From: an uncultured SAR86 cluster bacterium
GTDB taxonomy: Bacteria > Pseudomonadota > Gammaproteobacteria > Magnimaribacterales > Magnimaribacteraceae
Length of the DNA: 64,000 nucleotides
Direction of reading: 5' to 3'
NCBI GenBank assembly: GCA_938048695.1
Contig: CALIUO010000022.1
Span: 19,364-83,363 of the forward strand
Part shown: piece by piece, positions 45,990-57,647 of the stretch
How positions within the stretch are numbered: position 1 is the first letter of the stretch
Layout: the number at the start of each line of letters is the position of its first letter
Notes under the pieces: generated by a model
Told to the model about the DNA's origin: nothing
What the model saw: only the letters and a program-made list of their open reading frames with translations
Databases searched by the model: none
Program-made: the position numbers and the translations under genes

Positions 45990-47225
45990 ATGGAATTAAT
46001 TAGATCTCGACTTCTTAGTGAAGGTAGTTTTTGGCATATCAGCAGTCTGAGCGCTGTTTATTTATCTCAAGGTTTGTCCGGAGGAACTCTTTTTGCACTA
46101 ACCACTTACCTTGTATCTAGCGGAAGTTCTGTCAGTGATATTTCTTTATTGCTTTCGATAACAATGATTCCTTGGACCTTGAAAGTTTTTATGGGTCCTA
46201 TCATTGATACTTTTACTATCAATAGGTTCGGCAGAAGAAGGTTTTGGGTTTTGATCAGTCAATTAATGATGATCTTAGCTCTTTTACCTTTGGTCTTTAT
46301 AGATGTTAATGCGGTTAATTTCGTTTTAATTGCTCTGTTGACAGCTCATAACACTTTTGTTGCCATATCAGATATTGCTATTGATGCCTTAGCTGCAGAC
46401 AGTTTGCGAGAAGATCAACTAGCGAAAGCAAATGGCTTTATGTGGGGGAGTAAGACCCTTGGTAGAGGTGTTGGAATGGCAACTGCAACTTCTATCTTCT
46501 ATGGTTATGGAGTTAATGAAGGATTTGCCTTATTGGTCTTAATAATGTCGTTTGTTCTTATCCTTCCTATTTTGTCTAAAGAATTGGACTATAAAGCAGG
46601 GTTTGAAACTATGCTTTACAAGAATCGTCTTACTTTATATGAATTATTTTCTGGTATCCGGGAGAGTCTTTTTAATAAAAGTGCTCTTGCTGCAATGATT
46701 TTCATGCTTTTTGCGAATATTGGATATGGTATTTTTGACGTTATTTATAATGAGTTTTACATCAGCGAGCTTGGATGGACTGGAGAAGAAATTGGTTATA
46801 TGAGACCTTACGGAATGTGGTTAGGAGGACTCATTGGTCTTTCTGCAGGCTTAATGACTCTTTACTTTAGAAAACGTTTCTTACTTCTTCTTTTTGTAAC
46901 AGGTCAAGCTGTTGTTTATCTAGCAGCCAGCTCTTTTACTCCTGATACATCTAGTTTTTTCACTTCTGCCGTGTTGATTGGAGTTGACGCTGTTGATGCT
47001 GGATGGTCAGTGCTTATATTCTCAGTATTAATGGCACTTTGCGTTACTCAAACCAGCGCAACAAATTTTGGAATTTTCATGGGATTTGGCAATATCTCAA
47101 TGCTAATTGGTAATAATATTGCCCCCTCAGTCCTAGGAACAGGGGATTATGCTTTCGCCTTTACCTTTGCAGCCATTACCTTGATTCCTTGTTGGATAAC
47201 AGGTTATTACCTTACAAGAGACTAA
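45990..47225 (+). CDS. MFS transporter (AmpG-like)
   Basis: About 12 hydrophobic segments; PWTLKVFMGPIIDTF, FGRRRFWVL, SDIAIDALAADSL. Confidence 0.8.
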   Translation: MELIRSRLLSEGSFWHISSLSAVYLSQGLSGGTLFALTTYLVSSGSSVSDISLLLSITMIPWTLKVFMGPIIDTFTINRFGRRRFWVLISQLMMILALLPLVFIDVNAVNFVLIALLTAHNTFVAISDIAIDALAADSLREDQLAKANGFMWGSKTLGRGVGMATATSIFYGYGVNEGFALLVLIMSFVLILPILSKELDYKAGFETMLYKNRLTLYELFSGIRESLFNKSALAAMIFMLFANIGYGIFDVIYNEFYISELGWTGEEIGYMRPYGMWLGGLIGLSAGLMTLYFRKRFLLLLFVTGQAVVYLAASSFTPDTSSFFTSAVLIGVDAVDAGWSVLIFSVLMALCVTQTSATNFGIFMGFGNISMLIGNNIAPSVLGTGDYAFAFTFAAITLIPCWITGYYLTRD

Positions 47226-49525
47226 TTAAGTTTTCTCTTATCGAATCTTACAAGCAATTGAGGAAATAAAAAGAAGTCTATAAATAAGGCAGTCATGAAT
47301 GCAATGGAGGAGAATCTGGCAAAATCTCCCAAAGGTTTAAAACTTACTAAAGTTAAAGCAAGAAATCCTATACTTAGTACTACGGTCATTATAATTAAGG
47401 GAAATCCCACTGCTTCAAATGAGTAGATAATTGACTCTTCTGGACTCTTTTGAAGTTCAGTTCTAGCCAGATCATATTTACTCAATAAATGTACTGTGAA
47501 ATCTACAATTATGCCCAATGTTGATCCCATTCCTACAGCAACCATGAACCCTACATTTCCGTTCACTAGAGCCCAAATTCCAAAGGCTGTCCCTATAGGA
47601 AGTACGTTCGGAAATGAAGAAATAATTCCAAAAACAAATGATCTATAGAACAATCCCAATATGAGCGTGATTAATATCAAGCCTAGAAATACTCCAATAA
47701 GGAGGTTATTAACAATGACTTCATTTATAAAAGTAAAAACGACTCTAAATCCAGCTGGCGGGGAAATTGTATCCAGCAGATTATTTGTTACAAGATAGTC
47801 ATCAACTTTCTCACTGAAACTCAGATATTCTTTTGAGCTCATGTCTTTCAGTGAGCTGGCTATTTTGATTGTGCCTCTGTCTTGGCTTATTGAGCTATTA
47901 AGATCAAGGCCCAGCGGTAAAGACATCTCATAGAAGAATAAATATTGTGAGGCCAAATCTTCATTTTCTGGAATAATTTTCCAATTATCATCATCTCCAT
48001 GCATGCTGCGATTTAAAGTTTTCATGGTTGTTGCAAGAGAAGTAACATGGTTAACCTCATCCAGTCCTTCCAGCCATTCTGTAAATTCATCAACTTGATT
48101 CAGAAACTTGGGGCTGGATACATTGCCAGATGGTGATGTTGCCTTAAAACTAACCGGAAAAGTAACTCCCATTCTTTCGTCTAACCATATTGTGTCAGGT
48201 GCAAAAGAAGTAAATCTGTCACTGTACATTTGTGTAGGGTTTTCATCTAAATTGTTCAGAGGAATAAGACAAATTAAGATAAGAGAGATGGAGGGAACTA
48301 TCCAGATTAACTTTTTGCCATTTTTTAAGCTGAATTTTGCAATTTTATTTGCAATAGCAGTTTGTCCTGAGATCGTCTTAGGTGGAGAGATATCGAAATA
48401 AGAGGTAAGAGGAGCTATAAGGAATATCGTAAAAATAAATGCAAGCCCAACTCCTATTGCTATGCCATTACCTAAATTTCTCAACGGCTCTATTTCTAGC
48501 ACATTGAAAGATAAGAAACCTATACAGGTAGTTATCGTTGTTAGAAATAAAGGTTGAAGGTTTAGTTCCAGACTTCTTATCATGGCATTACGACTACTTA
48601 CTTCTTTTGCTCTTTCTTGAAAGTAGATAGTAAATAAGTGAACGCAATCTGCTAGAGCCAGAGTAATAACTAAGATAGGGTAGGTAATAATCATTTGATT
48701 AAGTGAATTTCCTATCCAACCTATTGATCCAAAGTTTGCCACTACAGAACAAATAACAACACCTAAAGTCGCGAAGACTGCGTATGTACTCCTTAGCAAG
48801 AAAAATACTGATAAAAAAATTAAAATAATCATCAAGGGCAAAATGTAGGGCATTTCTGTCTGAACGAGTCTTGGGCTGATGTATTCTTGGTAGGGATTAC
48901 CAAGCAGTCTTATATCTAATTCTTGGTATTTAGGTAATTCTAGTTGCAAGAAATTTAAAATATGTTCGATTGTTTCAGTTAATCTTGCTGCTTGGTCCTC
49001 ACCTGGAGGATCAATGACAATGCTGATTACGGTGGTTTCTTTATCTTTGGATATTATTGATCCAAAGATTGCATCTTGGGTTTCTACGATTTTGCTTCTT
49101 TCTTCTATGTATCCATCTGATAGGCTTAGAGCATTCTCTATGAAGGGTTCCACAAGCAGATCATCTGCCTCAGATCGAACATATGAAAAATTTGTAAGGC
49201 TATCTACCCTAACTGAATGAGGAATTGTCCAAGATAGTTCTGTGAGCCTCTCTATAAGATCAAGCGTCCTTTTTTTAAAGATAGATGTTCCTCTCCCATC
49301 TATTGCAATAATTATGTTATCGGTAGGAATAAAAGTTTCATCAATTTCATTATTTAGCTGGGTAGCAGGATGGTTCTCAGGAAAAAATGATTCTAAGTCG
49401 GGATCAAATGTTAAATATTGAGATCCAATCCCAAGAAATAGCATAAAGAAAAGGCTGCCAACTATACTCAACAGTCTATTTTTTATAATTGCGTTAGCTA
49501 GATATTTTTTATTAAAGAATTGCAT
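47222..49525 (-). CDS. RND-superfamily (MMPL-type) exporter
   Basis: 767 aa with two sets of membrane segments and large periplasmic loops; LALADCVHLFTIYFQER, GSTLGIIVDFTVHLLSKYD. Confidence 0.87.
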   Translation of the reverse strand: MQFFNKKYLANAIIKNRLLSIVGSLFFMLFLGIGSQYLTFDPDLESFFPENHPATQLNNEIDETFIPTDNIIIAIDGRGTSIFKKRTLDLIERLTELSWTIPHSVRVDSLTNFSYVRSEADDLLVEPFIENALSLSDGYIEERSKIVETQDAIFGSIISKDKETTVISIVIDPPGEDQAARLTETIEHILNFLQLELPKYQELDIRLLGNPYQEYISPRLVQTEMPYILPLMIILIFLSVFFLLRSTYAVFATLGVVICSVVANFGSIGWIGNSLNQMIITYPILVITLALADCVHLFTIYFQERAKEVSSRNAMIRSLELNLQPLFLTTITTCIGFLSFNVLEIEPLRNLGNGIAIGVGLAFIFTIFLIAPLTSYFDISPPKTISGQTAIANKIAKFSLKNGKKLIWIVPSISLILICLIPLNNLDENPTQMYSDRFTSFAPDTIWLDERMGVTFPVSFKATSPSGNVSSPKFLNQVDEFTEWLEGLDEVNHVTSLATTMKTLNRSMHGDDDNWKIIPENEDLASQYLFFYEMSLPLGLDLNSSISQDRGTIKIASSLKDMSSKEYLSFSEKVDDYLVTNNLLDTISPPAGFRVVFTFINEVIVNNLLIGVFLGLILITLILGLFYRSFVFGIISSFPNVLPIGTAFGIWALVNGNVGFMVAVGMGSTLGIIVDFTVHLLSKYDLARTELQKSPEESIIYSFEAVGFPLIIMTVVLSIGFLALTLVSFKPLGDFARFSSIAFMTALFIDFFLFPQLLVRFDKRKLN

Positions 49526-49527
49526 GT

Positions 49528-50688
49528 TTATAGATAATAAGTAAATTCAATTTTGAAGAAATCATCCTCCCTGAAAGCTTCGAATAATTTAGGCTCATTG
49601 TTATCCTCATCTGTATCTTCAAAATAAACGCCTTCCAGGGCGATCAAACAACACTCGCCAACTCTTCTTGAAGATTCCAAAAGAAATCCTAGCTCTTTGC
49701 TAACATCATTCCAGATGAAACCAGATAGGATTTGACTATCAAGCTCGTCATTAAAACTTAGTCTAGTCCCAAGCACAGTTGGAGAACTCTTTAATCGATC
49801 ATCATGATTCCCCTCAAATATCCAACCTAGATCAATTCTGCTATCAAAAATACCGACCTGAGTGTATTCAAAACCATAAGTTGCGGCTGAAAATCTATCG
49901 CCTTGCCCAGCTCTTGAAATTGCTTCTACTTTTATTGCTAAACTTCCTATTAAATAAAGAAGTTCTAGACCAAACTGATCAATTGTTTCGTAATAAGGAA
50001 TCAGGGGTTTGTCTATACTTCCAGTTGGAAACAATCTTGGTTCTCTGGTGGTTCCAGAAAAGTAAGATATAGCTATGTCTAGCTGATCATAATAATTTGA
50101 CCATCTGGCAGCAAAGTCAGTTCTCTTGTTTTTTGCAGATGATTCGTAAATAGATTCATTTTTATCAATTATCAAAGGAAGTCGCAATCTCCCTTCTTGC
50201 CCAGAAAACTGCCTCTCTCTGAAGCTAAATAAAGCGTAAATATCTAATACTCCCCATTCTTCTTCTAAGGAAACCTTCACCATGGGCTGTCCAAGTTTTT
50301 CTTCTCCATCAAATCCTTCTGTAAAGTCAGTCTGATTAATAATATCAACTCGATGAGTTGTTTCGGTTACTCCCCAAAACTCTTTACTTATTCCAAATTT
50401 AATTTCTCTCTCTTCACCAATATGTAACAAGTAAAATTCTTGCAAGTCTAAAAGATTTCTCTTAGGGTCCTGGCTATCTTTTCGGATCTTGGGTTTTAAA
50501 TGAAATATATAATCTTCTTCTTCATGAAATATTTCTGGTGAATATGAAAATGACGAATGAATTTTGTCTTGATAAGAAGTTCCCTCATTAAAGAAATATC
50601 GATTGTCTAATATAACTTCACCTAAGAATTCATAAGCGAATATGTTATTCAATAGAAAGAGGGCAACTATTGTTAACAAAAACTTCAT
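49528..50688 (-). CDS. Predicted outer-membrane beta-barrel protein
   Basis: Signal peptide, alternating amphipathic strands, C-terminal FKIEFTYYL; between LolA-like and MMPL genes. Confidence 0.65.
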   Translation of the reverse strand: MKFLLTIVALFLLNNIFAYEFLGEVILDNRYFFNEGTSYQDKIHSSFSYSPEIFHEEEDYIFHLKPKIRKDSQDPKRNLLDLQEFYLLHIGEEREIKFGISKEFWGVTETTHRVDIINQTDFTEGFDGEEKLGQPMVKVSLEEEWGVLDIYALFSFRERQFSGQEGRLRLPLIIDKNESIYESSAKNKRTDFAARWSNYYDQLDIAISYFSGTTREPRLFPTGSIDKPLIPYYETIDQFGLELLYLIGSLAIKVEAISRAGQGDRFSAATYGFEYTQVGIFDSRIDLGWIFEGNHDDRLKSSPTVLGTRLSFNDELDSQILSGFIWNDVSKELGFLLESSRRVGECCLIALEGVYFEDTDEDNNEPKLFEAFREDDFFKIEFTYYL

Positions 50689-50693
50689 TGAGT

Positions 50694-51494
50694 TTATCTA
50701 GATCTTTTAAGACTATTTTGCGAAAAGTCCCTATCATCAAATCCATTCTTATATTTGACCTCTCTGAAACTAAGAACAGAGCTCTTGCCATTTTGATTGT
50801 TGATCATAGTTACCTTATGAGGTTGCCAATAAGCCTCATTATAGATTTTGTAATCAGAGAAGATTTGGGTCTTCAAATGAAATGATTTTTTATCATAGTG
50901 ATGAATTTTTCTTGTTAAAAAATTTTCACTATCTATCCAGACTATTTGTTTTGTATACCCGGAATAAGGATCAAGAGGTTTCCTTTCAATAACATGGCAA
51001 AGTATTCCATCTAGTTCTTCTTCTCGAAGGTATTCATATTCATATTTTTCAACTTCTTGAAAAGAAAAGTCCTCGAAAGAGAATTCGCTACCTAAGAACG
51101 GACCGGATCTATTTTTTGAAGCAATCCTTTTTACTCTTTTAAGTGCTGGCAGGTATAACCATTGATCATCAGGTTCTACTTTATGAGAATAAGAAAGAAT
51201 ACCAACACCTCTAACATCCCTAGGGCTTTCAAATACTGCTAAAGATTTGTCGCCATCTCCAGGAACTTCAAGCCTTTTAAACCTGAGTTTTCTTGTAACT
51301 ACATCTCCTTTTTTACTGATTAACTCCATGGTCATTTCAGATGAGCTATCTCCATATCCATCAAAGTTTTCATCGCTTTTTAAAGCAATTTCTAAACCTT
51401 TGTTTGCTAAAACTTCTCCTGAAAATATAAAAAGCATGCCAAATATGCACGCGATTATTGATTTTCTATGAAATAAAACATTTGCAAGACTCAT
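50694..51494 (-). CDS. Periplasmic LolA-like protein (outer membrane lipoprotein-sorting protein family)
   Basis: Signal peptide; DDQWLYLPALKRVKRIASKNRSGPFLGSEFSFEDF and LDPYSGYTKQIVWIDSENFLTRKIHHYD. Confidence 0.82.
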   Translation of the reverse strand: MSLANVLFHRKSIIACIFGMLFIFSGEVLANKGLEIALKSDENFDGYGDSSSEMTMELISKKGDVVTRKLRFKRLEVPGDGDKSLAVFESPRDVRGVGILSYSHKVEPDDQWLYLPALKRVKRIASKNRSGPFLGSEFSFEDFSFQEVEKYEYEYLREEELDGILCHVIERKPLDPYSGYTKQIVWIDSENFLTRKIHHYDKKSFHLKTQIFSDYKIYNEAYWQPHKVTMINNQNGKSSVLSFREVKYKNGFDDRDFSQNSLKRSR

Positions 51495-52150
51495 GTCAAA
51501 ACTCCTCCGTGTAAATTTCTAATGATTAATTGAGATTCTTTGCTCAGATATGGTTCTGAGACTTTAATTAATAGCCCCATGCCTCTTTGCATCAAGAAAT
51601 TTTCGTCTTTATCAGGATATTTTTTTGAAGAGAGAGCAAACCAATTATCGGCAACAAGAAAAATAATTTCACTCAGCTCATCTAGTTCATTTTCTTTAAA
51701 GTCGAATACTCCTTGATCTCTACCAATAAGAGCTTCTTCCTTAATCTTATTAAATCGCAATTGAGTTAACTCATTCAATTTATTGGTGATAGATCTATCA
51801 GAGGAGAGATTATCAGCAAGATTATCTCTAAACAGATATCTGAAGTCCCAATTAAAATAGTACTGAGATAAGAGTTGTTTAATTAAAATTTCTAAGTCAA
51901 TTTTCCCCATCATATCTAACTCCACATCAATATTTTTTTTAAAAAGTTCAATATGAGATTCAACTAAACTTTTTTTTGATTTGAAGTGATACCAAAGAGT
52001 CCCCTCGCGAACTTTTGAAGACGATGCCAAAAGTGAAGTCGTAACACTTGCGAACCCTTTTCTATTGAAAAGCTCAAGACTATTTTTGAGTAGCTTATCT
52101 CTGGTACAGTCGCTAAACAGAGCAGTTGTACGAGTTGATAAATTTTTCAT
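51491..52150 (-). CDS. TetR-family transcriptional regulator
   Basis: SLELFNRKGFASVTTSLLASSSKVREGTLWYHFKSKKSLVESHI helix-turn-helix; start assigned to ATG at 52150, directly after the operator palindromes. Confidence 0.85.
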   Translation of the reverse strand: MKNLSTRTTALFSDCTRDKLLKNSLELFNRKGFASVTTSLLASSSKVREGTLWYHFKSKKSLVESHIELFKKNIDVELDMMGKIDLEILIKQLLSQYYFNWDFRYLFRDNLADNLSSDRSITNKLNELTQLRFNKIKEEALIGRDQGVFDFKENELDELSEIIFLVADNWFALSSKKYPDKDENFLMQRGMGLLIKVSEPYLSKESQLIIRNLHGGVLT

Positions 52151-52187
52151 TAGGGTACTTACCCTAAATTTTAGGGTACTTACCCTA
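52151..52187. promoter_or_regulatory. Two identical 16-bp palindromes TAGGGTACTTACCCTA (52151-52166 and 52172-52187), candidate TetR operators
   Basis: Read directly: 7-bp perfect arms TAGGGTA/TACCCTA with centre CT, repeated with exactly 21-bp offset. Confidence 0.85.
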
Positions 52188-52195
52188 GAAGTCAA
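52168..52195 (-). promoter_or_regulatory. Candidate promoter of the TetR/exporter operon: TTGACT, 16 bp, TAAAAT
   Basis: -35 at 52195 to 52190 and -10 at 52173 to 52168 on the minus strand; one palindrome fills the spacer and the other follows the -10. Confidence 0.7.
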
Positions 52196-52224
52196 CTCTC
52201 ATTTAGTTAATTCTCTTAATATAT

Positions 52225-53109
52225 TTATTTATCTAGGTAATTTTGTTGGACACTAGAGAAATCGAGACCTTCAAATCCTTGGTTATTTAATTCTTCATAA
52301 AGTTCTCTAGCCAGTCTTCCCATGGGAGTATTAGACTTAGACTGATTTGCTAATTCTTTAGCTAGGTTGAGGTCTTTAAGCATCAAGGAGTTTAAAAAGC
52401 CACCAGAATAGTTGTTACTGGCAGGAGCTTCTTTCATTACCCCTGGAAAAGGATTATATTTTTCTAGAGACCAGTTCCCCCCAGAGCTATTCTTCATGAT
52501 CTCAGACAAAATGATAGGATCTAGTCCGTTATTTACTCCCATTGCTATAGTTTCAGCAGTCCCACACATATGGATTGCTAGAAGCATATTATTACAAAGC
52601 TTAGCTATCTGGCCTGAGCCCGCCTTACCGGCATAAAAGATTTTATCTCCCATAATTTTGAAAAGAGGAGCTGCTTTTTCAAGATCGGCTTCTTCACCAC
52701 CAACAATAAAAGTCAGAGTACCTAACTCAGCTCCTTTTACACCACCCGATACGGGAGCATCTAGCATAGAAATATTCATCTCTTTTGCTTTTTTTGAAAC
52801 CTTTTTGGAAACCTCAGGATTTATAGTGGACGATTCAATAACAATCATATTTTTACTAATTTTCTCTAGTAAACCTTCTTTCAAGAATATGTTTTCAACA
52901 GCCTTATCATTCGGCAACATGGTAATTAGAGCATCTATATTTTCTATAACTTCTGAGGCAGAGCTTTTAGTTTTCATACCCAATTCATCTGCTCTTTGCA
53001 TTGCCTCCTTTGATAAATCAAAAGCATTTACTTCAATATCGGCTTTTAAGATGTTATTCGCCATCGGTAAGCCCATATTTCCTAAACCAATAAAACCAAC
53101 TTTTTTCAT
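52225..53109 (-). CDS. mmsB: 3-hydroxyisobutyrate dehydrogenase
   Basis: VGFIGLGNMGLPMANNIL, MLDAPVSGGVKGAELGTLTFIVGG, AGSGQIAKLCNNMLLAI; start assigned to MKKVGFIG. Confidence 0.93.
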   Translation of the reverse strand: MKKVGFIGLGNMGLPMANNILKADIEVNAFDLSKEAMQRADELGMKTKSSASEVIENIDALITMLPNDKAVENIFLKEGLLEKISKNMIVIESSTINPEVSKKVSKKAKEMNISMLDAPVSGGVKGAELGTLTFIVGGEEADLEKAAPLFKIMGDKIFYAGKAGSGQIAKLCNNMLLAIHMCGTAETIAMGVNNGLDPIILSEIMKNSSGGNWSLEKYNPFPGVMKEAPASNNYSGGFLNSLMLKDLNLAKELANQSKSNTPMGRLARELYEELNNQGFEGLDFSSVQQNYLDK

Positions 53110-53111
53110 TT

Positions 53112-54224
53112 TTAAAGATCCTCCAGAGGATTTTTCTCCCATGCTAAGTCCGTATGCTTATCTAACCATGACTGTTTAACATTTTTAATAGAATCATATT
53201 TCCAGTTCGGTTTATTATCCTTATCTATTATTAGAGCTCTTATACCCTCTTTAAAGTCACCTCTTCTTGTAATCTGTATAGCTAAGTTAAGCTCAAAATT
53301 AAATACCTCTTTTAAGTTTAAGCTTGAAGATTTTAAATGCTGAAGCCATATTAAATGTGCTGACGTAGGACTCCCTTTGATTAGTGATTCTTGTCCTTTC
53401 TTAAACCATTCGTCATCTTCTGTATGACTCATTATGTTATCTATAACTCCGAAGAGGTCTTCTTCATTAGTCATTGATTGAATTTTGTCTAATTCATCTT
53501 CAATCTTACTTACAGGAAAGCTCTCTACTACTTTTAAGTAGGAACTACTATTAAGTATTGAATCAAGTAAAGTTAAGTTCTGTTTAACATCATCATGCCA
53601 ACTCAACTCAACTACATCCGTAAGGAAATCTTCCATCTTTGCTGAGCTCAAATAACTATCGGCTAAATTACAGAAAACCAAATCGGAAGCGTTAAGCGGG
53701 GAGGCTGTAAGCATAATATAGAGTCCAAGGCCTTCGGGTAGATCTTTTATCACAGATGTGAAACCTACATCAGGGAATAGGCCAACGCCAATTTCTGGCA
53801 TTGCAAACTTTGTTCTTTCTGTAGCAATCTTATAAGTACTGGCAAACATCAGACCGGCCCCGCCACCCATAACGATGCCATCTAAAATAGAGATTATTGG
53901 TTTTGGAAAATTATGGATTTTATAGTCCAGTCTATATTCAGATTCAAAAAAAGTTTCGGCAAAAATTGGTCCCTCTGGAGAACACATTGATTCATAAAGG
54001 GCTCTGATATCTCCACCAGCACAAAATGCTTTTTCACCTGCACCGCTGATTAGGATCATTTTTATTTGGGGATCTAATTCCCATTGATCTAATAGATCAG
54101 AGATTTCGTTAACCATATTTAGGGTTAATGAATTTAATGTTTCTGGAGAGTTGAGAGTTATATGTCCAATCTCGGTATCATTCTGACACCTCAATCTCTC
54201 AACAATTAGTTGATCATTAGGCAT
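53112..54224 (-). CDS. 3-hydroxyisobutyryl-CoA hydrolase (enoyl-CoA hydratase/isomerase superfamily)
   Basis: GAGEKAFCAGGDIRALYE, GIVMGGGAGLM, MPEIGVGLFPDVG. Confidence 0.9.
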   Translation of the reverse strand: MPNDQLIVERLRCQNDTEIGHITLNSPETLNSLTLNMVNEISDLLDQWELDPQIKMILISGAGEKAFCAGGDIRALYESMCSPEGPIFAETFFESEYRLDYKIHNFPKPIISILDGIVMGGGAGLMFASTYKIATERTKFAMPEIGVGLFPDVGFTSVIKDLPEGLGLYIMLTASPLNASDLVFCNLADSYLSSAKMEDFLTDVVELSWHDDVKQNLTLLDSILNSSSYLKVVESFPVSKIEDELDKIQSMTNEEDLFGVIDNIMSHTEDDEWFKKGQESLIKGSPTSAHLIWLQHLKSSSLNLKEVFNFELNLAIQITRRGDFKEGIRALIIDKDNKPNWKYDSIKNVKQSWLDKHTDLAWEKNPLEDL

Positions 54225-54987
54225 TTTGCCAATTCGGTTTTCGCTTATCTAAAAAGGCCTCAACCCCTTCCTTTTGATCTTTTGTATCAAATAATTTTAC
54301 AAACGGTTCCAGTTCTTCGTTGTAAGGCTCATCAGATAGGCGAGCTTTATGAATTAGTTCCTTACATTGTGCAATACTACCGGGACTTTGGTTTGCTACA
54401 GAAGAGGCTATAGACATAGCAGCCTCTAGACTCTTTCCATCTTCAACCTTTTCTTCAATTAGTCCAATTTTAAGAGCTTGATCAGGTTTTATTTGCTCTC
54501 CAGTCAAAATAATTCTTTTAGCCCAACCTTCTCCAACCAATCTTGGAAGAACCTGAGTACCTCCACCACATGGAAGTAAGCCAACTTTAGGTTCTGGTAG
54601 AGCCAAGATAGCTTTTTCTTCTGCCACTCTGATGTCACAAGCCAATGCGCACTCTAGTCCGCCGCCCATAGCAAATCCATTTATCGCCGCTATTGAAACA
54701 CCTCGAAATTTACTAAGCGCTTTGAAAGCTTTTGAGAAAGCATTACTCATTTCATTGGCAGCATCTTTTCCACCTTCATGAAAAACCTTAAGATCAGCTC
54801 CAGCAGAGAAGAACTTTTCTCCCTGACCAGTAATTACCAGCGAGAAGATTTCATCATCTTTATTTAGAAGCTCAATAATTTCTTCTAATCCAGAAAGGCT
54901 CTCTAGATCCCAAGTATTTGCGCTAGGATTATTAATTGTAATCTTTGCAGTATTATCTATTTTTTCGAGTATTAATTTATCTGTCAT
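54217..54987 (-). CDS. Enoyl-CoA hydratase
   Basis: GQGEKFFSAGADLKVF, AAINGFAMGGGLECALACDIRVA, LPEPKVGLLPCGGGTQ. Confidence 0.92.
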   Translation of the reverse strand: MTDKLILEKIDNTAKITINNPSANTWDLESLSGLEEIIELLNKDDEIFSLVITGQGEKFFSAGADLKVFHEGGKDAANEMSNAFSKAFKALSKFRGVSIAAINGFAMGGGLECALACDIRVAEEKAILALPEPKVGLLPCGGGTQVLPRLVGEGWAKRIILTGEQIKPDQALKIGLIEEKVEDGKSLEAAMSIASSVANQSPGSIAQCKELIHKARLSDEPYNEELEPFVKLFDTKDQKEGVEAFLDKRKPNWQNA

Positions 54988-54992
54988 AATTT

Positions 54993-56153
54993 TTATTGAA
55001 TTATTGAAGCAGCGTCTTCCATTATCATTCTGCGTCCTATTATCATTTTCATAATTTCATTTGTTCCTTCTAATATTTGATGGACTCTTACATCTCTTAC
55101 ATGTCTTTCCAGAGGATACTCTTGAATATATCCATAACCTCCAAATATTTGAAGAGCTTCATTGCAAACATTAAATCCAACATCAGTAGCAAATCGCTTC
55201 GCCATAGCCGAATAAACGGTTGCTTCAGAATCATTGCTATCGATTTTTGAAGCTGCGAGTCGCGTCATAGTCCTGGCTGCAATTAATTCAGTTACCATAT
55301 CAGCTATTTTGAATTGCATACCTTGAAATTCAGCAATCCTTTTTCCAAATTGCTCTCTCTCATTCATATATTTTTGAGCTTCCTCTAATGCAGACTGAGC
55401 GGTTCCTATTGAGCACGTGGCTATATTTATTCGTCCTCCGTCCAACCCTTGCATAGCAATTTTGAAACCATTTCCTTCTTCGCCGATCAAATTCTTTTTT
55501 GAAACCTTAACATCAGTTAAAGATACCAACCTGGTAGGTTGATTCTTCCAACCCATCTTTGGCTCATTTTTTCCATACTCTATACCCGGCGAGTCAGCAG
55601 GTATAAGAAAACATGAAATACCTTTCGCTCCTGAATCTCCTGTTCTGGCCATAAGTATAAGACAGTCTGTAGCACCCGATCCTGATATGAAAGCTTTCGA
55701 ACCATTTAAAATAAAATTATCTCCATCCTTTTTGGCAGTAGTTCTCAAGGACGCTGCATCAGAACCAGATCCAGGTTCGGTAAGACAATAAGAGGCTAGT
55801 TTTGCACCTGTGCTAAGTTGAGGAAACCACTCTGCTTTTAATTCTTCTGAAGCAAACTTACTTACCATCCAAATTGCCATATTATGAATTGTCATAAAAG
55901 CTGTTGTGCTGGTGCATCCTTGGGCAAGCTGCTCAAAAACTATTGAAGCATCTAGTCTGCCTAGACCCATTCCACCCAAACTTGTATCTACGTAAAGCGA
56001 CAAGAAACCGAGCTCTCCTGCTTTAGTCAAAGTTTCTTTTGGAAAAAAAGACTCTTTATCCCATTCAGCAGCAAAAGGTTTAAGTTCTTTGTCAGCAAAG
56101 TTCCTTGCTAAGTCTCTATAATTTTTCTGATCAGAATTTAAGTCAAAATCCAT
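54993..56153 (-). CDS. Acyl-CoA dehydrogenase (probably isobutyryl-CoA)
   Basis: YCLTEPGSGSDAASLRTTA, ERHVRDVRVHQILEGTNEIMKMIIGR; valine-degradation context. Confidence 0.92.
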   Translation of the reverse strand: MDFDLNSDQKNYRDLARNFADKELKPFAAEWDKESFFPKETLTKAGELGFLSLYVDTSLGGMGLGRLDASIVFEQLAQGCTSTTAFMTIHNMAIWMVSKFASEELKAEWFPQLSTGAKLASYCLTEPGSGSDAASLRTTAKKDGDNFILNGSKAFISGSGATDCLILMARTGDSGAKGISCFLIPADSPGIEYGKNEPKMGWKNQPTRLVSLTDVKVSKKNLIGEEGNGFKIAMQGLDGGRINIATCSIGTAQSALEEAQKYMNEREQFGKRIAEFQGMQFKIADMVTELIAARTMTRLAASKIDSNDSEATVYSAMAKRFATDVGFNVCNEALQIFGGYGYIQEYPLERHVRDVRVHQILEGTNEIMKMIIGRRMIMEDAASIIQ

Positions 56154-56156
56154 CTA

Positions 56157-57647
56157 TCACTCCAAATTGATGGTCAAGTTTTTCGTTCTTTCTTCATCAT
56201 CTTCAAACCATCTTTCAGTTACAGTCTTTGTTTCAGTATAAAATCTAACTGCCTGTTTTCCGTAAGCATGAAGATCGCCATAAAAAGACTGCTTCCATCC
56301 TGTAAAAGAGAAAAAAGGCAATGGAACCGGAATCGGTACGTTTATCCCAACCTGGCCTACCTCAATTTCGTGTCTAAATTTTCTAGCAGATCTTCCTGAT
56401 GCAGTGAATATAGATGTCCCATTACCATAAGGATTAGCATTAATTAGCTTTATTGCTTCTTCAAGGGTATCAACTTCTATGCACAATAAAACAGGTCCAA
56501 ATATTTCAGTTTTATATATCTCAGATTCTGTTTTAACTTCAGAAAACAGGGTAGTTCCAACCCAATTGCCATTGGGATATCCTTCCACTTCACAATTACT
56601 TCCATCTATCAGGCATTTTGCTTCTTTCTTTCCTGTAGAGATTAAATCAATGATTCTTTGTTTAGCTTGAGAGCTAATAACAGGACCAAACCCAGACTCT
56701 TCTGAGTCCCAAGGACCAGGTTTAACCATTTCCATTTCATTTTTAAGATCTTCTATCCAATTTTTAGAAGAGCCTACGAAAACAGCTACACTGATGGCCA
56801 TACATCTTTGACCAGCAGCCCCAACCGAAGACCCAACTAAGCTATCAATAGTTTTATTTTTATTGGCATCTGGCATAACTACCATATGATTTTTAGCTCC
56901 AGCAAACGACTGCACTCTTTTAAGATGTTCTGTTCCTGTTTTATAAATATATTGTCCAACTGGGACCGATCCTACAAAGGATATAGCTTTTATGTCAGGA
57001 TGCTTTATAAGAACATCTACTTGGCTTTTATTTCCATGTATTACTTGTAGGATATTTGGAGGGGCTCCCGCCTCTAAAAATAGTTCTGCAAGTTTATTGG
57101 CAGTCATTGGATCTTGTTCAGAAGGTTTTAATATAAATGTATTACCGCAAGCTATTGCCATCGGAAACATCCATAAAGGGATCATGGCAGGAAAGTTAAA
57201 TGGGGTTATACCCAAACAGACTCCAAGAGATTGGATGTAGCTGTAAGAGTCGATTTCTCTAGCGACATTTTCTACAGTTTCTCCCATCAGCAGGGGAGTA
57301 ATATTTGCAGCTTGTTCTACAACCTCTATGCCTCTCCAAACATCACCTTTAGCATCTTCAAAAGTTTTTCCGTTTTCTTTGCTAAGTATTCTTGCAATTT
57401 CATCCTGATTCTTTTTGAGAAGTTCCTGATATTTCATCATTACTCTAGACCTTTCAGGTGGAGGTGTTTCTTTCCAAGAAAGAAAAGCTTCTTTGGCAGA
57501 TTTAATAGCTCTTTGAACTTCCTGGTCTGTTGCACAAGGAGCTTCACAAAGCACTTCTTGAGTGGCAGGATCTAAAACTTCAATCCACTCTTTTGTATCA
57601 CTTTTTATAAATTGTCCTTCTATAAAGAGGTTTAATTTTTCAGTCAT
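56157..57647 (-). CDS. mmsA: Methylmalonate-semialdehyde dehydrogenase (CoA acylating)
   Basis: [64 protein letters not shown]. Confidence 0.95.

Follow-up and report, generated by a model that had tools for sequence, protein, structure and literature searches.

A TetR-family regulator gene in an uncultured SAR86 cluster bacterium is preceded by two copies of one 16-bp palindrome set closely around its promoter, which raises the question of what the palindromes do and which protein reads them. The window analyzed here is a stretch of 64,000 nucleotides from a draft genome of 1.33 Mb (85% complete). An earlier note on this DNA had proposed that the regulator binds the repeats and switches off its own promoter together with the three genes downstream; the comparison below supports this proposal by conservation of the repeats, by their co-occurrence with the regulator, and by their appearance at a second operon.

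The regulator gene heads an exporter operon

The tetR gene and the three exporter genes that follow it share one strand and are separated by -4 to +5 bp (Table 1). The encoded regulator matches the TetR_N helix-turn-helix profile PF00440 at 41.1 bits against a cut-off of 24, which places it in the TetR family, and carries a TetR-type sensor domain (PF13972, 51.1 bits). Its structural model is all-helical, and the best PDB matches, 3rh2 (Shewanella Sama_0099) and 3nnr (Marinobacter Maqu_3571), are the closest solved relatives by both profile and fold; with a mean pLDDT of 66.7 (moderate), the TetR-type fold is indicated mainly by the profile. Both entries stem from structural genomics, and we found neither an operator nor a ligand for either.

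The transporter contains MMPL domains (PF03176, 62.1 bits; cut-off 20.5), which assigns it to the HAE3/MMPL group, and its best NCBIfam match, TIGR00921 (HAE3), scores 136, below the cut-off of 352. The same combination of an HAE3/MMPL transporter, a LolA-superfamily component, and an outer-membrane protein is found in AmeABCD of Castellaniella defragrans, associated with monoterpenes (PMC6394551), and in the alkane-induced TOL_3187/3188 of Thalassolituus, associated with long alkanes (PMC6304351). The window operon is not of the tetrapartite AmeABCD type, having only three exporter genes and an outer-membrane protein that lacks a Pfam match; AmeA is a DUF1302 protein and AmeC is unmatched in it (PMC6394551), and TOL_3187 fuses the LolA-like and MMPL domains that are encoded by separate genes here (PMC6304351).

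Across the family, the exporter genes usually stand right behind the valine-catabolism genes running from mmsA to mmsB (window 47222-57647). This family-wide gene order suggests that branched-chain breakdown is functionally linked to the exporter, and the exporter genes may also be transcribed by read-through from the upstream valine operon.

Table 1. Coordinates of genes and control elements around tetR in the window
Feature	Position	Strand	Remarks
MMPL/HAE3-family RND transporter, 767 aa	47222..49525	-	profile matches
Probable outer-membrane beta-barrel protein	49528..50688	-	no Pfam match; role from operon position and analogy (AmeABCD, TOL_3188)
LolA-like periplasmic protein	50694..51494	-	PF17131; 4 bp overlap with tetR stop
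tetR, 219-aa TetR-family regulator	51491..52150	-	PF00440 and PF13972
Putative operator O2 (inner), TAGGGTACTTACCCTA	52151..52166	.	touches tetR start codon; kept in 5 orthologous loci
Inferred transcription start	52160..52161	-	inside O2, about 10 nt before ATG; inferred from -10 position
-10 hexamer TAAAAT	52168..52173	-	TAATAT in most orthologues
Putative operator O1 (outer), TAGGGTACTTACCCTA	52172..52187	.	in -35/-10 spacer; kept in 5 orthologous loci
-35 hexamer TTGACT	52190..52195	-	TTGACT or TTGATA in orthologues
mmsB (3-hydroxyisobutyrate dehydrogenase)	52225..53112	-	end gene of valine-catabolism block; 74 bp upstream of tetR

Twin palindromes lie across the promoter

Read 5' to 3' on the minus strand, the promoter region has the order TTGACT-TC-TAGGGTAAGTACCCTA-AAATT-TAGGGTAAGTACCCTA-ATG. 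The two palindromes proposed in the earlier note were confirmed as identical copies at an offset of 21 bp, the exact repeat extending over 17 bp (TTAGGGTACTTACCCTA); within each copy 14 of the 16 positions are palindromic, around a CT/AG center. The outer copy had been described as filling the 16-bp spacer between -35 and -10. The spacer length is correct, but O1 occupies only 14 of these bases, its last two (TA) being the first two of the -10 hexamer. The inner copy lies between the -10 and the start codon, as claimed, and the A of the ATG at 52150 immediately abuts it.

Such an arrangement is not expected by chance, since neither the rest of the 64-kb window nor any of 20 first-order Markov simulations contained an exact 16-mer repeat at an offset of 17 to 40. 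The genome-wide search for the motif that the earlier note had recommended returned no third strong copy in the genome itself, and matches with one or two mismatches were about as frequent as those of a reversed-pattern control. A wider regulon in this genome was accordingly discarded as a candidate.

The distance between the end of the -10 hexamer and the ATG is 16 to 19 nt in all six loci compared in the genus, and if transcription starts at the usual distance from the -10, the tetR leader is likely to be roughly 10 nt long. In the window, the reading frame of tetR stays open as far upstream as a TTG at 52195, and the repeat could in principle be coding, with tetR starting at this TTG and the 21-bp repeat encoding RVSTLKF-RVSTLMK. 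We give this reading a negligible probability: an in-frame stop directly precedes the ATG in four of five orthologues, the N-termini align from M1 across orthologues, and offsets of 20 and 22 bp, present in some relatives, break the frame. These stops rule out the TTG-extended open reading frame and, together with the M1 alignment, identify ATG 52150 as the true start and the repeat as noncoding. The absence of a Shine-Dalgarno site at tetR, pointed out previously, was likewise observed, but it does not set the gene apart, because 33 of the 46 window genes also lack an SD-like 4-mer between -20 and -4 (present in 13 of 46, and at 15% of random positions). Starts independent of a Shine-Dalgarno site look common in this genome, judging by these 46 genes.

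The sites are conserved with the regulator in the genus

Orthologues of tetR with 75 to 79% identity occupy the same place in five genomes of the genus (G010, G014, G001, G018, and G006, the same records as loci L034-L038), all of them draft metagenome assemblies. Both palindromes, the -35, and the -10 are retained in all five, with the ATG 0 to 1 nt after O2. The earlier note had held that loss of the repeats in close relatives keeping the operon would speak against its reading; every one of these five tetR-keeping relatives has kept both. Identity between genomes is 86% in the promoter/operator block, 77% in the tetR gene, and 62% in the upstream 25 bp. The locus thus has what is expected of an autorepressor site, namely, a palindrome over the gene's own core promoter that is conserved with the gene.

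The offset between the palindromes is 20, 21, or 22 bp, both in the five orthologous loci and across all eight loci bearing the motif, so the previously suggested placement on the same helix face is only approximate and strict same-face cooperativity is not required. All 16 sites share GGG, ACCC, and the final A without exception. The variable 4-bp centers of the two copies in one genome agree more often than do centers from different genomes (permutation P of about 0.01 to 0.03; 5 to 8 related loci), which is suggestive, at most, of the two copies evolving in concert within each genome.

These data also bear on the possibility that the palindromes act as RNA, forming a strong hairpin by the tetR AUG in read-through transcripts of the valine operon and thereby controlling translation or processing. 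Pairing between the copies is possible, with a predicted energy of about -17 to -21 kcal/mol in four loci, and tetR follows mmsB on the same strand after only 74 bp. We nevertheless consider an RNA role very unlikely, because (i) the half-site letters, including the invariant GGG and ACCC, are conserved beyond what pairing requires; (ii) the outer copy of G014 (TCGGGT..ACCCTA) and the inner copy of G044 (GGGC..ACCC) break pairs; (iii) the copies overlap the conserved -35 and -10, so that they would be only partly transcribed from that promoter; and (iv) no T-run follows the palindromes.

The motif follows the TetR subfamily to a second operon

The TetR subfamily occurs in 8 of 203 genomes of the order, and the twin motif was found in exactly the same eight, once each and at that operon, with zero matches for a reversed pattern in the same scan. 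Of the 369 genomes in a sample of the class, the window genome has the twin motif and the 368 others have none. Ten more distant homologues in the class (L123-L132) have no twin motif, which limits the operator comparison to SAR86. Since motif and gene are adjacent and share the inheritance of one locus, their co-occurrence partly reflects linkage and does not amount to independent statistics. Seven genomes of the same genus have no tetR; they keep the exporter, with a short gap to mmsB and no palindromes, and on the same point raised by the earlier note, these exporter-keeping relatives lack repeats and regulator alike. The palindromes are present in every relative that has the repressor and missing from those that do not, which marks them almost certainly as its own sites.

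The strongest argument that this TetR reads the operator is that the operator class accompanies the subfamily at another target as well. The next closest homologues, with 38% and 35% identity, come from two other SAR86 genera (L039, SAR86E contig AMWX01000012; L109, genome G044), and there tetR lies downstream of a gene of the fatty-acid-desaturase family (PF00487). The region upstream of one desaturase gene reads TTGACA-TA-TTGGGTGATTACCCAA-ATAATA-CTGGGTAAATACCCAA and that upstream of the other TTGACT-AT-TTGGGTAGTTACCCAA-TATAAT-TTGGGCAATTACCCAA, so the order of -35, palindrome, -10, and palindrome is kept, at an offset of 22. The half-site is TTGGGT..ACCCAA, in which the second base and its partner have changed from A/T to T/A relative to the exporter-type TAGGGT. 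The desaturase and tetR loci with this TTGGGT-type twin operator span 5134-6654 in L039 and 7234-8690 in L109.

Binding by some regulator other than the adjacent TetR is conceivable, the more so as the window genome is a draft. It would have to be reconciled with the lack of the motif in every SAR86 genome without this TetR subfamily and with its reappearance beside the same subfamily at an unrelated operon, and we rate it as very unlikely.

Proposed mechanism and comparison with known systems

As a whole, the observations are best explained, and in our judgment with good confidence, by the palindromes being a double operator through which the adjacent TetR represses its own promoter and the three exporter genes. 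Judging by the comparisons, binding of TetR to O1 and O2 is very probable and repression of this promoter by it is highly likely, if somewhat less so, whereas we see an even chance that two TetR dimers cooperate. One dimer would bind each copy; at O1 it would cover the spacer between -35 and -10 and extend two bases into the -10, and at O2 the predicted start site and the leader, such that occupation of either site would block RNA polymerase. TetR would thereby repress tetR and the co-transcribed genes for the LolA-like, outer-membrane, and HAE3/MMPL proteins, and its release by a ligand would lead to derepression. The ligand is probably hydrophobic or lipid-like, by analogy with the TetR relatives beside a desaturase and with the HAE3/LolA exporters of apolar compounds (AmeABCD, TOL_3187/3188).

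Some TetR-family proteins activate transcription or require a co-ligand, and the protein could likewise bind here as an activator or a ligand-dependent corepressor, not as a ligand-released repressor. This is very improbable, as one site lies over the spacer and the other over the start region of the core promoter, where a repressor is expected, and the spacer has an ordinary length of 16 to 17 bp.

Repression by a TetR protein of its own gene through duplicated palindromes is an established textbook mechanism. The window locus resembles the TetR/tetO1-tetO2 systems of Tn10 and Tn1721, in which two tandem palindromic operators are combined with autorepression. There, however, tetR and tetA are divergent, and both the operator sequence and the sensor domain differ from those of the window. 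The tetR mRNA of Tn1721 is leaderless according to the title of Baumeister et al. (1991) as cited in PMC3848588, whereas a leaderless state is deduced from sequence at the window locus. NfxB/TNfxB of MexCD-OprJ/TMexCD-TOprJ is likewise a local TetR-family regulator beside an RND efflux operon, and it is self-repressing, its binding sites in the promoter region being two inverted repeats; these repeats, of 24 bp each, are located between the genes for regulator and pump, as opposed to two 16-bp palindromes at one promoter of a regulator-first operon here (PMC11077950). NfxB belongs to a TetR subfamily different from that of the window protein. The MexCD-OprJ/TMexCD-TOprJ pump is of the HAE1 type, and the window pump is HAE3. 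QacR and CprB are TetR-family repressors that also place two dimers on one operator region, cooperatively in their case; in the CprB complex a single 22-bp site is bound by both dimers, each from its own side, with QacR analogous, in contrast to the two complete, separate palindromes about two turns apart in the window (PMC4150764). For AmeABCD and TOL_3187/3188, the available portions of the reports describe no twin-operator TetR (PMC6394551, PMC6304351).

The literature searched held nothing relevant on TetR regulators or leaderless genes in SAR86 or on the operator word, and in it we found no study of a SAR86 regulator. For this abundant marine lineage, the locus supplies a concrete and testable operator together with the genes that its regulator would control, and ties an uncharacterized HAE3-like exporter to a local sensor. 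It also offers two natural variants of operator specificity within a single TetR subfamily.

Gain or loss of the regulator

The gap between mmsB and the exporter in the tetR-less G008 reads as the left flank found in G018 (GAAACTTAAATCAT) fused to the last codons of the G018 tetR (AGAATTTAGTATATG). An apparent scar is seen when the two are compared (L092 versus L037), with AATTTA at both edges. From this junction, G008 is best read as the product of one deletion between short AATTTA repeats that would have removed the promoter, both operators, and nearly all of tetR; alternatively, the difference may reflect an insertion in G018.

In trees of the upstream genes, five tetR-bearing genomes group together, but G018 falls among the tetR-less ones; G000 groups with G010 by its upstream genes but with the tetR-less G003 by its exporter genes. 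Seen from the window (47222-51494, compared with L091), the exporter genes group with tetR-less G003 and the upstream valine genes with tetR-bearing G010. Because gene trees on either side of tetR disagree, loss and recombination near tetR are likely. A single gain of tetR in the genus was considered and is not a simple account, given these conflicting groupings.

It is tempting, though doubtful, to regard promoter, twin operator, and tetR as a portable cassette that comes and goes in one piece, by which an exporter otherwise appended to the valine operon would become inducible separately, with operator copies evolving in concert and two sister cassettes (TAGGGT for the exporter, TTGGGT for the desaturase). 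If so, the sister cassettes would be a natural pair for studying shifts in TetR operator specificity.

The junction downstream of mmsB varies in other ways as well. In G004, mmsB is followed by an apparent convergent MFS-like gene, with neither tetR nor the exporter between them. In G020 and G024, from other genera, a quinone-oxidoreductase-like gene on the opposite strand lies between mmsB and the exporter (L102 4545-5552; L103 2558-3523), occupying the junction where the window has tetR.
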